Below are positions 18,075 through 30,358 of a stretch of 35,940 bases of DNA, one piece after another. Each line of letters begins with the position of its first letter. Position 1 is the first letter of the stretch. Below the pieces are notes generated by a model. The model was given only the letters and a program-made list of their open reading frames with translations, did no database searches and was not told the origin of the DNA. This DNA is from Sphingomonas sp. GTDB taxonomy: Bacteria; Pseudomonadota; Alphaproteobacteria; Sphingomonadales; Sphingomonadaceae. The position numbers were made by a program, and so were the translations under genes. The DNA is taken from assembly GCA_013361785.1 (NCBI GenBank), contig JABFXK010000086.1, positions 1 through 35,940 on the forward strand, written 5' to 3'.

Positions 18075-20347
18075 GTGTCGAAGCGCCAAACAGCTATCGC
18101 CGAGCAGCCGTCCTGGAAACTTCTTCTGTGGGTGGCGATCGCCGGACTTGTCTTCGGGCTGATCGGCTTCGGAGAGATCGCCGAGGACTGGCTGCGCGTC
18201 GCGCGAAACCAGCTCCATCGACACAAGGCCAGCGGCGACATCGTTCTGGTGAAAATCGACGACAATTCGTTGCACGACGTCGGCCGATGGCCTTGGCCGC
18301 GAAGCGACTTCGGCCGAATTACCGACGTCCTGACCAAGGCGGGCGCGAAGCGCATTTTCTTCGACCTCACCTTCTACGGCCCGACCAATGCCACGGACGA
18401 CACCGCTTTCGCCGAGGCGATCAAGCGTTCGAAACGGGTCTACATCGCCGTCCGAACCCGCGCCGGGACCGATAGGGAAGCGCCTAATGGACCCTCAGCG
18501 CTGCCGGAGATTGCCCGATACGCGCACCTTGGAAACATCAGCGCCCACTACAATTATCAGAACGCTATCTGGGAGCTGCCCTACGCAGTTCCGATCGGCG
18601 GGGTTGCGCTTCCGTCCTACGCGGTGCTGCTCGCCGAGCGCTCGGGCCAAGCCAATGGGACCTTCATGGTCGACTATTCGATCGACCCGAAGTCTGTCCC
18701 GTCCGTCTCCGCATCGCGCCTGTTCCGCGGCTCTTCCGCGGCAAAGATGTGATGGTCGCATGGGTCAGCGAATCTCTCGGTGACCAGGATTTCAGTCCCG
18801 GCAGCGGCAAGATGGCTGGCGCTTACGTCCAGATCCTCGGCGCCGAGACCCTCAAGCGCGGGAACCCAGTGTATTTCGGCTGGATTCCGCTGTTTCTCGT
18901 CGCTTTGGCAATTGCCACCGTGGCAGTACGTCGGCGCCGTTTAGCACATCGGATGTGGTTGCTTGGCGGTGGAGCGCTTCTGTTCCTGCTTGTGCCGGCG
19001 ATCCTCGAAGACAAACTGATTACGCTCGACGTAACGCCTGGGCTCTTCATCCTGCTGACCGTTGGCGTCGTCGTCGCTTGGCGGACATACCGCGCCCGCG
19101 GCCTGGTGAACCCCGTCTCCAACCTTCCCAACCTCGACGCGCTGCGTGCCAACCGCGAAGGCCGCAAGCACGCGATCGTTGCTGCGCGCATCCTGAACTA
19201 TGAAGAGATCGTCGCCGCGCTGCCGCCGAATAACGAGCGGCAGCTGATCGAGCAGATCGTCGCCCGGCTGAATGTCGGCTCCCCTGATCGGCTTCTCTAC
19301 CAGGGTGACGGCGGGATCTTCGGCTGGTTCGAGGAGCCGAAGCAGCCGTTCGGCAATCATCTCGAAGCTCTCCACGCGCTGTTCCGCAACCCCGCACGTA
19401 TCGCGGGTCTTTCGATCGATCTCGCCATTTCGTTCGGGGTCGAGATCGGGAGCGGCCGCTCGCTTGCCAACCGTCTCGCCAGCGCGCTCGTCGCTGCCGA
19501 CGAAGCGGCGCACCACGGCCTCAAATGGAAGTACCACGACCCCGAGACGCTCGAGAACGCGTCGTGGAAGCTGTCCATGCTCAGCCAGCTCGACGAGGCG
19601 ATCGACCGCGGAGAAGTCTGGGTCGCGTATCAACCCAAGCTCGACGTCGCGACGCGCAGGATCATCGGCGCCGAAGCGCTCGCCCGCTGGACGCACCCGG
19701 AGAAGGGCCCGATCGCGGCAACCGAGTTCGTCGCTGCCGCGGAACAGCATAATCGGATCGGCAAGCTTACCGACTTCGTTCTCGAGAAGGCGGTCGCGGC
19801 CGGTGTGCAGATGATCAAGCGCGCAGCCGACTTCGATATCGCAGTCAACCTTTCGGCGCGGCTCCTGACCGACAAGGGATTCACGCTTCGGCTTTCCGCC
19901 TTGCTCGCGCGCCACGGGCTCGCCCCAAACCATCTGACTCTCGAGCTGACCGAGACTGCCGCGCTTGCCGACACCGGCGAGGGGCTCGACATGATCAACC
20001 GGCTTCGGGACCTCGGCGTCAATATTGCGATCGACGACTACGGGACCGGACAATCGACGCTCGACTATCTGAAGAAAATCCCCGCGAACGAGATCAAGAT
20101 CGATCAGAGCTTCGTCAAAGGTATCGTCGACAACCGAAGCGACCGGCTGATGGTGCAGTCCACGATCGGCCTTGCGCATTCGCTCGGCCGGAAGGTCGTT
20201 GCCGAAGGGGTCGAGCACCGCGACATCCTCGAGACGCTGGTCGAGCTCGAGTGCGACATTGCGCAGGGCTTCGCTGTCGGTCGGCCGATGAGCCTCGAAG
20301 CCCTGGCCAAGCGCGTCTCGGCCGTCCGTCGACGCAGCGCCGCCTGA
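18075..20347 (+). pseudogene. CHASE2 / degenerate GGDEF / EAL protein gene, split by a frameshifting 11-bp tandem duplication at ~18723-18742
   Basis: 18075-18752 CHASE2 (DIVLVKIDDNSLHDVGRWPWPRSDFGRITDVL); 18749-20347 continues CHASE2 C-terminus, TM helices and EAL (GAEALARWTHPEKG, DDYGTGQSTLDYLKKIPANEIKIDQSFVKGI). Removing 11 bp joins ...RLFRGKDVMVAWVSESLGDQDF. Confidence 0.82.
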
Positions 20348-20452
20348 ATTCGCCAGCGCCTGCGGCTGAACAGCCGGCCGCGCACTGCTCCACAATCCGT
20401 TGCAAATTGAGACAGGGTGCAGGCTCACTCACCGCCCGAAATGGTGAATCGT

Positions 20453-20481
20453 TTGTCAACCATATCGATTAAGGTTAATAT
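20453..20481 (+). promoter_or_regulatory. Sigma70-type promoter (TTGTCA - 17 bp - TAATAT)
   Basis: -35 at 20453-20458, exact 17-nt spacer, -10 at 20476-20481, in an AT-rich patch between genes. Confidence 0.65.
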
Positions 20482-20522
20482 GCCCACGACTGCCGAATCG
20501 CAGTGGACAAAGGGGCATCCCG

Positions 20523-20603
20523 ATGAAGAAGACCAAAAGCGCTCGCGGATTTTGGACCTGGCTGATGGGTGGCGGCTGGACCGGCACCGGCGGGGGCGGC
20601 TGA
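20523..20603 (+). CDS. 26-aa micro-ORF MKKTKSARGFWTWLMGGGWTGTGGGG
   Basis: ATG 7 nt after AAAGGGG SD-like sequence (20509-20515), downstream of a strong promoter and upstream of a strong terminator. Confidence 0.5.
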   Translation: MKKTKSARGFWTWLMGGGWTGTGGGG

Positions 20604-20629
20604 TCGTCGCACCAATTCAAACCGTTAGA

Positions 20630-20660
20630 AAGCGCCCGCATCTCGCGGGCGCTTTTATTT
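20630..20660 (+). terminator. Rho-independent terminator
   Basis: 10-bp perfect stem aagcgcccgc/gcgggcgctt, 5-nt loop atctc, followed by ttatttt. Confidence 0.85.
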
Positions 20661-20704
20661 TGGGGCTTCTGGAACGTTCCTGCCCAGCACGCTAGTCCGC
20701 CCCG

Positions 20705-21124
20705 ATGCTCCGGCAGGCCAGCACCACCTTGTCGATTCGCGCGAGTCGCGCCGGGCTGCATGAATTTACCGATGACGTGCAGCATTTCGTCGCCGACAGC
20801 GGAATTCGCGAGGGTCTGCTGACCCTCTTCTGCCGTCACACTTCGGCGTCTCTTATCATTCAGGAGAATGCCGCGCCGGCAGCGCGGCACGACCTCGAAG
20901 CCTATTTCGAGCGCATCGCTCCCGAAGGCGCGGGATACGAGCATGACGACGAAGGACCCGACGACATGCCCGCGCACCTCCGGACAGCGCTCACCGCGAC
21001 GCAGCTTTCCATTCCCGTGAAGGACCGAAGGCCCGCGCTCGGCACGTGGCAGGGCATCTTCTTGTTCGAGCACCGCCGTAACACCCCCGAGCGCCAGATC
21101 GCGCTCCACCTGATCGGCGAATGA
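20705..21124 (+). CDS. YjbQ family protein (secondary thiamine-phosphate synthase enzyme)
   Basis: CRHTSASLIIQENAAPAARHDLE, LGTWQGIFLFEHR. Confidence 0.92.
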   Translation: MLRQASTTLSIRASRAGLHEFTDDVQHFVADSGIREGLLTLFCRHTSASLIIQENAAPAARHDLEAYFERIAPEGAGYEHDDEGPDDMPAHLRTALTATQLSIPVKDRRPALGTWQGIFLFEHRRNTPERQIALHLIGE

Positions 21125-27101: not shown

Positions 27102-28250
<1,149 letters not shown>

Positions 28251-28332: not shown

Positions 28333-29064
28333 TTAGGCTGCGGCGGGCGGCAAACCTACAAGATGTTGAGTCTCGATGATCTCGATGGACTCAACCGCTG
28401 GTGTGTGTGGCGCGGAAGACTCGCTTGTGCCGATTTCTTCGAACACCAGCTCGGGCTGCTTGTCGCCATCGATTGCGGCGCGGACTTTCGGAAAGCTTCG
28501 GCGGTGGAGCGGCGTCGGGCCGAGCGCGTGAAGCGCACGCCAATGCTCGGGCGTTCCGTAGCCTCTATTCGTCTCCCACCCGTAGCCGGGATATTCGCGG
28601 GCAAGATCGGCCATGATCCGGTCGCGGGTGACCTTGGCAATGATCGAAGCGGCGGCGATCGAGCGGCATTTGGCGTCCCCATCGACGATTGCCTTGGAGG
28701 GCCGCTGCCACTTCGGGCAGGCATTGCCGTCGACCAGCACCCAGGCGGGCTCAAGGCCCAGCGCCTCGACCGCGCGAGCCATCGCCAGCATGCGGGCCCA
28801 ATAGATGTTGAGCTGGTCGATTTCCTCGACGCTCGCGATTCCGACCGCCCAAGCGGAGCATTTCACCAGCTTGGCGTAGAGCGCCTCGCGCTTTTCGATC
28901 GGCAGGTTCTTCGAATCGTCGATCCCGCGGGGAAATTTGCTGCGGTCGAGGATGCAGGCGCCCGCGACCACCGGCCCCGCTAGCGGAGCGCATCCCGCCT
29001 CGTCGACCCCGGCGAGCGGCTGCGGATAGTCGAGCTCGAGCTTGAAGGAACAGCGCCGCGGCAT
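28333..29064 (-). CDS. rnhB: Ribonuclease HII
   Basis: LAGVDEAGCAPLAGPVVAGACIL, AAASIIAKVTRDRIM, GYGWETNRGYGTPEH. Confidence 0.94.
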   Translation of the reverse strand: MPRRCSFKLELDYPQPLAGVDEAGCAPLAGPVVAGACILDRSKFPRGIDDSKNLPIEKREALYAKLVKCSAWAVGIASVEEIDQLNIYWARMLAMARAVEALGLEPAWVLVDGNACPKWQRPSKAIVDGDAKCRSIAAASIIAKVTRDRIMADLAREYPGYGWETNRGYGTPEHWRALHALGPTPLHRRSFPKVRAAIDGDKQPELVFEEIGTSESSAPHTPAVESIEIIETQHLVGLPPAAA

Positions 29065-29134
29065 CGAGTCGGACTCTTGCACCCGCGCGCGGGCGGCGGT
29101 CCAGACGCTCAGCCGACAGAAGCTGTGGAAAAGT

Positions 29135-30358
29135 CTAGTTTTCCATCCGCCAAGGCGGAAAGCGGCGCGCTTCGCCGGCCTTGTAAAAGAAGATGATGTT
29201 GCCGTCGGGGTCGCGGAGCCGCGCCTCGCGCCACATCCAGGGCTGGTTTCGGGGTCCGTGTTCGAACGCGATACCGCTGCGCGCGAGCTGCTCCACACGC
29301 TCGTCGAGGTCGTCGCACTCGAGGTAGATCGCGGTCGTCGCCTGGATCTTCTCGTGCGGGTCGATCTGTACGGAGAGCGTCACTCCGCCCGCGGTCTCGA
29401 AGCGCGCGTAGCCCGTGTCGGGACTGTCGATGATCTGCTTGAGGCCGAGGCTGCGGTAGAACTCGGTCGAGCGACGGTAATTGGTGCCTGTGACAGTGAC
29501 CTGATTGAGCCTCGGGCCGGCGCCGACGTCCAGGCGCACGTTCGACTGGCCGATCGGGCCAGCGCCATTCCCCAGCCCCGGCCCGTCATGGAGCGCAACG
29601 CGCACGAACTCGCGCGCGCGGGCGACCGCGTCGGAAAGGCTCGAACCCTGGGCGAGGAACAAAGCAATCGCGCTCGCCAGCGTGCAGCCGGTGCCGTGCG
29701 TGCTGGTCGTCTCGATCCGCTGGCCCTGCCAGCTCGTCATATTGTCTTCCTCGATGAGCGCGTCGGCCAGCGCGTTCCCCTCATCGTGGCCGCCTTTGAT
29801 CAGCACCGCGCAGCCATGCTCGCCGACGAGGTGAAGCGCGGCGGCGACCGGGTCTTCTTCGGAGGTGAGGCGCTTGAGCTCGGGCAGGTTGGGCGTCGCG
29901 ACCGTCGCCACGTCCATGAGCCGGCCGAAGGCGGCAATGGTGGAATCGTCCGCGAGCGAGCCGCCGCTGGTCGACGCCATGACCGGGTCGAACACGATTG
30001 GGAGCCCCGGCTGCGCCGCTTTCATTTCCTGCAGACGGCTCGCAACCTGCTTTGCCGCGAAGGCGCTTCCGATCATCCCGATCTTGACCGCATCGACCCC
30101 GATGTCGGCGACGACCGTGTCGATCTGCGCGAGGATCATCTCGGCGGGAATCGGGTGGATTGCGTCGACGCCGAGCGTATTTTGCGCGGTAACGGCCGTG
30201 ACAGCCGTCATCGGATGGCCGCCGAGCAAAGCAACGGTCTTGATGTCGGCCTGAATGCCTGCACCGCCTCCGGAATCGGAGCCGGCGATGATGAGGATGC
30301 GAGCCGTCGGCGTCACGCTACGCGCCTTCGACCCCTTTCCCGGGGCGAAGTTTTCCAT
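29135..30358 (-). CDS. thiD: Hydroxymethylpyrimidine/phosphomethylpyrimidine kinase fused to a C-terminal VOC (glyoxalase-like) domain
   Basis: ILIIAGSDSGGGAGIQADIKT, TSTHGTGCTLASAIA (ThiD), then NQVTVTGTNYRRSTEFYRSLGLKQII...LRDPDGNIIFFYKAG (VOC) in one frame. Confidence 0.9.
   Translation of the reverse strand: MENFAPGKGSKARSVTPTARILIIAGSDSGGGAGIQADIKTVALLGGHPMTAVTAVTAQNTLGVDAIHPIPAEMILAQIDTVVADIGVDAVKIGMIGSAFAAKQVASRLQEMKAAQPGLPIVFDPVMASTSGGSLADDSTIAAFGRLMDVATVATPNLPELKRLTSEEDPVAAALHLVGEHGCAVLIKGGHDEGNALADALIEEDNMTSWQGQRIETTSTHGTGCTLASAIALFLAQGSSLSDAVARAREFVRVALHDGPGLGNGAGPIGQSNVRLDVGAGPRLNQVTVTGTNYRRSTEFYRSLGLKQIIDSPDTGYARFETAGGVTLSVQIDPHEKIQATTAIYLECDDLDERVEQLARSGIAFEHGPRNQPWMWREARLRDPDGNIIFFYKAGEARRFPPWRMEN

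Follow-up and report, generated by a model that had tools for sequence, protein, structure and literature searches.

In the mRNAs of type I toxins such as tisB, hok, ldr and ibs, the ribosome-binding site is occluded; the distribution of these toxins is patchy. MgrB and SafA are small membrane proteins that regulate sensor proteins, and in some streptococci short peptides with pairs of tryptophans serve as signals. In Sinorhizobium meliloti, the small RNA rnTrpL carries the Trp-rich leader peptide peTrpL, of about 14 aa, which has been shown to act in trans (PMC7298713). The Caulobacter RNA CcnA, described as noncoding and located at the replication origin, pairs through CCCC/GGGG motifs (PMC8959179).

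The locus considered here lies in a stretch of 35,940 nucleotides from Sphingomonas sp. (contig JABFXK010000086.1 of assembly GCA_013361785.1), referred to below as the window. The original prediction placed at 20453-20660 a self-contained unit with a strong promoter, a Shine-Dalgarno sequence (SD), a 26-codon ORF and a terminator; the letters named for the promoter boxes, the SD and the ORF are all present at their places (Table 1). One way to understand this locus is as an autonomous, translationally self-occluded microprotein gene that acts in trans, perhaps on c-di-GMP signalling. As judged from comparison of relatives, that account has somewhat less than an even chance of being right.

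Table 1. Features of the micro-gene unit and its surroundings in the window
Feature	Position	Strand	Basis
CHASE2 + EAL gene, c-di-GMP phosphodiesterase type	18075..20347	+	Pfam CHASE2 E=1.5e-18, EAL E=1.4e-68
Promoter/operator module TTG(CT)AACCAT-N5-TTAAGGTTAA	20453..20478	+	near-invariance in genus, once-per-genome occurrence
CtrA-like half-sites TAACCAT and, inverted, GGTTAA (putative regulator)	within 20453..20478	+	
TAATAT, proposed -10, probably not the true -10	20476..20481	+	last three bases 78/62/60% conserved
Outer helix P1, 5' arm GCCC; probable transcript start near 20482	20482..20485	+	covariation with SD flank
Apical hairpin P2, ACTGC-CGAATC-GCAGT	20489..20504	+	folding per species
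GANTC (GAATC), CcrM methylation site	20495..20499	+	leader comparison
SD AAGGGG (20510-20515) and P1 3' arm GGGC (20513-20516)	20510..20516	+	sequence, pairing prediction
Micro-ORF, 26 aa, MKKTKSARGFWTWLMGGGWTGTGGGG	20523..20603	+	genus conservation, pN/pS, homologues in other genera
Intrinsic terminator, 11-bp perfect stem + G-U, loop ATCTC, T-rich tail	20628..20661	+	sequence, fold
yjbQ (UPF0047), downstream neighbour outside the unit	20705..21124	+	TIGR00149
ccrM (N6_N4_Mtase + RAMA)	27102-28235	-	NF050803 E=1.3e-189

Conservation in relatives, on which the original prediction had been staked, is found, although not by plain DNA comparison: the 231-bp unit, searched against 201 family genomes, gave only chance matches in G-rich sequence besides the window itself. 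Within the genus the unit was uncovered by anchoring on the neighbour yjbQ and reading up- or downstream of it; the peptides obtained include MKKTQTRGFWSWLGGSGWASGGGNG, MKKVSKGRGFWTWLMGGGWTGAGGGGA and MKKVKTGRGFWSWLMGQGWDTAGGNG. A sequence model built from 23 units recovers the micro-gene in 68 of 71 genomes of the genus, at E-values as low as 1e-31. All 53 high-quality genus genomes (at least 90% complete, at most 5% contaminated) carry it, and nearly all of these have one main copy. Sphingomonas rhizophila KACC 19189 (L156) and Sphingomonas alba (L160) encode peptides identical to those of the genus units L078 and L079. Tandem copies are seen in L035 (1015-1095 and 1288-1368) and L037 (1021-1101 and 1308-1388); one copy in each has a decayed promoter module.

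Beyond the genus, a family-wide search gave weak matches, yet reading them yielded true homologues in other genera (MAKRTKQPVRGFWDWLLGGGWN, MKKRTQHQGRGFWEWLLGSGWK, MKTKKAVYPAPTKRGFWDWVMGGGWKNG), and a pattern scan tied to organism names found such peptides in Blastomonas, Sphingorhabdus, Chakrabartia and Parasphingopyxis. Reading 3' of the CHASE2-EAL gene in 40 genomes of the order brought out ultra-short forms: MWSIWDWLFGKEK, MWDFWGWLFGK, MTGFWDWLFGRSAR, MFGSIWDWIFN, MFRSIWDWIYS and MKKWPWAGWNW. Homologues range from 11 to 35 aa. With a fixed criterion (an SD, 10-40 aa and a W-motif), 20 of 40 EAL-downstream regions score in the sense orientation; the antisense strand scores in 1 of 40, and sequence lying further downstream in 0 of 40. 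Pattern matches outside the sphingomonads (Bacteroidales, Pelagibacter, Bacillota, Hymenobacter and others) were set aside as chance or unrelated frames, and weak order-wide profile matches in other families (E>0.01) were taken as chance; plasmids and phages gave no matches. The micro-gene is best read as an ancient gene of the Sphingomonadaceae.

The reading frame is almost certainly a real protein-coding gene for a translated, constrained peptide, to judge by its substitutions. A dN/dS-type check had been proposed for the 26 codons, and the signal in 63 aligned genus ORFs is purifying: pN/pS is 0.43 pooled, and pN is below pS in 348 of 353 comparable pairs. Two Gly columns are invariant or nearly so, their codons changing only, or almost only, at position 3; mean entropy at codon positions 1, 2 and 3 is 1.09, 0.93 and 1.28 bits. 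The low pN and the third-position Gly variation both point to a translated, constrained peptide. The longer overlapping frame at 20417-20695 (92 aa), already judged less likely to be real, is not conserved; in the relative L033 it ends early, as MVNRLSTISIKVNMPPTAGSQSNKGAET before a stop.

Homologues share the core [FI]W[DSE]W(L/I)xG, which the most remote members keep somewhat less strictly. In the genus alignment the Trp codons are spaced W-x-W, with no consecutive run, and Phe, Leu and Gly are conserved besides Trp. The Lys-rich start and Gly-rich tail are optional across homologues; the N- and C-termini are not conserved. In some species of the genus the Gly-rich tail or the Lys-rich start is gone (L050, L056, L048 and L040; for example MWSYLFGCGWR and MSFWNWVWGCGWSR), so constraint appears to fall mainly on the W-x-W-L-x-G core. 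Two species (L236, L237) have an expanded core with an inserted WVIWD segment, ARGWVIWDFWRELVGGGNG and TRGWVIWDFWKELVGGGSG.

The earlier description of an SD 7 nt before the ATG at 20523 stands, but it missed a 5' hairpin predicted to occlude that SD. Most leaders are predicted to fold as an apical hairpin, below which an outer helix joins the 5' end to the SD. The stem sequence of the apical hairpin changes freely between species; the leader pairing is kept. Upstream pairing of the SD (probability >0.5) is predicted for 79% of genus leaders, against 56% with shuffled upstream sequence, and for 90% of other-genus leaders, against 39%; when the seven bases after TTAATRT are set against the SD flank, own partners have a mean duplex energy of -7.58 kcal/mol, against -6.39 +/- 0.20 for swapped partners, and 0 of 500 permutations in the genus were as good as the native pairing, all of these being controls that only partly remove relatedness among species. 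Covarying duplexes include CGUCCCC:GGGGACG, UGCUUCC:GGGAGCA and ACUCUC:GAGAGU. The window's own outer helix is short (GCCC:GGGC), and its SD has a pairing probability of 0.56. These folding models make it quite likely that the transcript hides its own ribosome-binding site.

The same covariation bears on the transcript start. Bases 20482-20488 covary with the SD flank and are therefore probably transcribed; the start is thus probably near 20482, rather than near 20488 as first proposed. A start there makes TAATAT doubtful as a -10, and agrees with how poorly the last three bases of that hexamer are conserved. Of the strong promoter that had been predicted, the letters TTGTCA-17-TAATAT are indeed present (20453-20481) and the unit has its own conserved module; the -10 assignment is the part in doubt. 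The -35 box TTGTCA is this locus's version of the TTGCTA seen in the family, and TTA[AG]GGTTAA, just upstream of the last bases of TAATAT, is almost invariant in 63 genus units. A promoter scan over 5 kb gives 2 sites where 0.5 would be expected. In five of five genus genomes the 26-bp module (up to 3 mismatches) occurs once, and only at the micro-gene.

What recognizes this module may be a regulator of the CtrA type. TTAACCAT is a half-site described for CtrA (PMC6180460, PMC3692519). With at most 1 mismatch it is present in 26 of 28 other-genus promoters, against 3.1 in shuffled sequence, and in exact form in 11 of the 28, against 0.03 expected; all 63 genus units score for it as well, but they share one inherited motif. 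By eye, the two half-sites of the window promoter do not add up to TTAA-N7-TTAA, the standard full site for CtrA. From these motifs, CtrA-type control of the micro-gene has about an even chance of being real. GANTC occurs in 44 of 66 leaders, with N varying (GAATC 23, GAGTC 13, GATTC 8), and is absent from a third. The ccrM gene of the window scores 629 bits, below the 830-bit cut-off of the Caulobacter equivalog NF050803; rnhB (RNase HII; 28333-29298, minus strand) adjoins it, about 6.6 kb from the micro-gene. GcrA is encoded in the genome. Cell-cycle control of the micro-gene is plausible because the CtrA-like half-sites, the leader GANTC, ccrM in the window and GcrA in the genome would all be consistent with it.

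At the 3' end, the perfect stem with a T-rich tail had been recognized correctly, except that the stem is longer than the 10 bp given (arms 20629-20639 and 20645-20655, followed by TTTTATTTT). Most relatives have an equivalent stem 3' of the micro-gene. Many relatives (L029, L031, L036, L039, L041 and L048) have a second, non-conserved hairpin between stop and terminator, absent in the window. As the whole unit is conserved, it is more than a chance assembly of signals.

The surroundings were less well described: the original prediction missed a conserved neighbour. A CHASE2-EAL gene lies directly upstream on the same strand at 113 of 118 micro-ORF loci, at a median distance of about 150 bp; these loci are partly redundant, and nearly all were located through the sequence of the micro-gene itself. 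The adjacency persists although EAL proteins of different genera share only about 38-47% identity. Relatives have CHASE2-EAL as a single uninterrupted ORF of about 770-790 aa. In the window the CHASE2 and EAL parts are in different frames that overlap at 18749, a split that is either an assembly error or a real frameshift. The linkage to EAL suggests a functional tie. As evidence for a partner, however, it may reflect inherited gene order, and the unit survives without EAL in Blastomonas: in Blastomonas aquatica and a second Blastomonas genome (separated loci G159:C4 / L241, L157 and L168), the EAL gene is elsewhere with no micro-gene behind it, and the micro-gene is in another place. In B. 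aquatica the relocated copy was read through and still has its own promoter, leader hairpin and terminator. The unit has moved whole, and therefore is self-contained. The reading of the locus as a novel microprotein in an independent unit is thus upheld by conservation, amino-acid selection, the lack of a family match, and a promoter and terminator that stay with the ORF even where it has been relocated.

If the pieces are put together, the first nucleotides of the transcript would pair with the ribosome-binding site to form a 5'-terminal hairpin, leaving the mRNA mostly silent until opened; a CtrA-type regulator and CcrM methylation of the leader GANTC might time transcription in the cell cycle; a small amount of Trp-rich peptide would be made from the self-occluded mRNA; this short peptide may bind a membrane interface or protein surface and act in trans; and its most likely effect would be to adjust either the CHASE2-EAL protein encoded next to it or some other component of c-di-GMP signalling. 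That CHASE2-EAL or c-di-GMP is the target is a tentative proposal, with the gene order as its basis and perhaps one chance against two. The fullest version, in which a family-wide, CtrA/CcrM-timed microprotein, 11 residues at its shortest, is made from a self-silenced mRNA and directly regulates the CHASE2-EAL phosphodiesterase, is unlikely to hold in every part. The third of leaders that lack GANTC and the want of a standard CtrA full site weigh against the model in general, as does the finding that about half of sampled CHASE2-EAL genes in other genera have no micro-ORF directly downstream.

Other accounts explain part of the same evidence. The SD-occluding leader predicted here is what a type I toxin-like gene would have, its tiny aromatic peptide being harmful when overproduced and its mRNA silenced by a 5' hairpin over the ribosome-binding site; the very small aromatic peptide, the stand-alone unit and the tandem copies in two genomes fit as well. 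Presence in 53 of 53 high-quality genus genomes, with one main copy in nearly all, is not the behaviour of such toxins; 11-aa forms such as MFGSIWDWIFN are too short to span a membrane, and a consensus scan of the window found no minus-strand promoter for an antisense RNA. We regard this account as improbable. The same leader, with a C-rich 5' arm and a G-rich SD, could instead pair with target mRNAs, making the transcript a dual-function or purely regulatory sRNA. Its size is sRNA-like, it has its own promoter and terminator and a conserved structured leader, and CcnA offers a precedent for pairing of this kind (PMC8959179). Yet the ORF is constrained at the amino-acid level, the leader changes sequence freely as long as pairing is kept, and no Rfam family reaches threshold, so that a regulatory RNA too has rather little probability. 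Since no part of the unit is better conserved than the ORF, the variant first suggested, an sRNA that happens to carry one, is unlikely.

The position of the gene invites two further readings. As a tiny ORF adjoining a receptor whose sensor domain is predicted to be extracytoplasmic, it might encode a peptide, secreted or periplasmic, that the CHASE2 domain of the phosphodiesterase senses as a signal; neither a signal peptide nor an exporter or a processing protease is linked to it, the termini are not conserved, and gene and EAL are apart in Blastomonas, which makes this very unlikely. Two or three Trp codons ahead of a terminator recall trpL, and the 14-aa trpL leader peptide of S. meliloti acts in trans (PMC7298713); on that model the ORF would be a cis-acting leader peptide or Trp attenuator for the gene downstream. 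Orientation largely refutes it, since the downstream gene varies and is often convergent. In particular, yjbQ runs in the same direction as the micro-gene in the window, but the two converge in L028, L032, L038, L048 and L053, and yjbQ was not found beside the unit in other genera; the flipped orientation excludes a cis leader of yjbQ, and with it the regulatory leader peptide once envisaged. Moreover, conservation extends beyond Trp to Phe, Leu and Gly, there is no run of regulatory codons, and the unit has moved as a whole in Blastomonas; attenuation is highly improbable. A RiPP precursor, also raised at first, is without support because the neighbourhood holds no conserved maturase, CHASE2-EAL being the conserved neighbour, and no maturase or exporter was recognized in the immediate vicinity; the Gly tail is missing in short homologues. 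Finally, 26 codons and no database family might describe a spurious intergenic ORF, an idea refuted by the conservation, codon-level selection and family-wide homologues set out above and left with negligible probability.

The self-occluded microprotein gene remains the preferred reading, and the claim that it belongs to no recognized family has held up. Pfam and NCBIfam give no microprotein match at E<=10, and PDB gives none; PHROGs gives one insignificant match (E=0.055). Rfam has nothing at the gathering threshold, its best match (ncS025, 19.3 bits against a 46-bit cut-off, E=0.3) covering the terminator. A literature search found no paper describing the micro-gene. A gene present in every well-sequenced genus genome and traceable across much of the family is thus without a family description in the databases searched, because it is only 11-35 codons long. 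It would connect a microprotein with c-di-GMP signalling, and perhaps with promoter elements of the cell cycle; it also offers a small system in which to study how a transcript conceals the site where ribosomes bind it. If true, direct regulation of CHASE2-EAL would define a new class of very small peptide modulator in bacterial second-messenger signalling. The model predicts a start site, the behaviour of hairpin mutants and a partner, all testable in cultured relatives, Sphingomonas rhizophila and S. alba among them.

The micro-gene resembles several described systems in part. Like MgrB and SafA, it would be a small protein presumed to modulate a membrane sensor; those proteins are longer and have transmembrane segments, whereas the partner here is a candidate from gene order. 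It shares CCCC/GGGG pairing motifs with CcnA, but CcnA is described as noncoding and sits at the replication origin. With type I toxin mRNAs it has in common a tiny ORF in its own unit, a 5' structure hiding the SD and occasional tandems; it differs in that no antisense partner was found by the consensus promoter scan, in being too short for a membrane span, and in being usually single-copy and near-universal in the genus. Like peTrpL and rnTrpL, it is a Trp-rich peptide on a small RNA that ends at a terminator; unlike them, it has no trp gene downstream and no Trp-codon run, and it has its own SD, a leader hairpin and a different sequence. By analogy, then, this peptide family, absent from the databases searched, resembles both the small-ORF mRNAs with occluded ribosome-binding sites and the Trp-rich peptides that act in trans.
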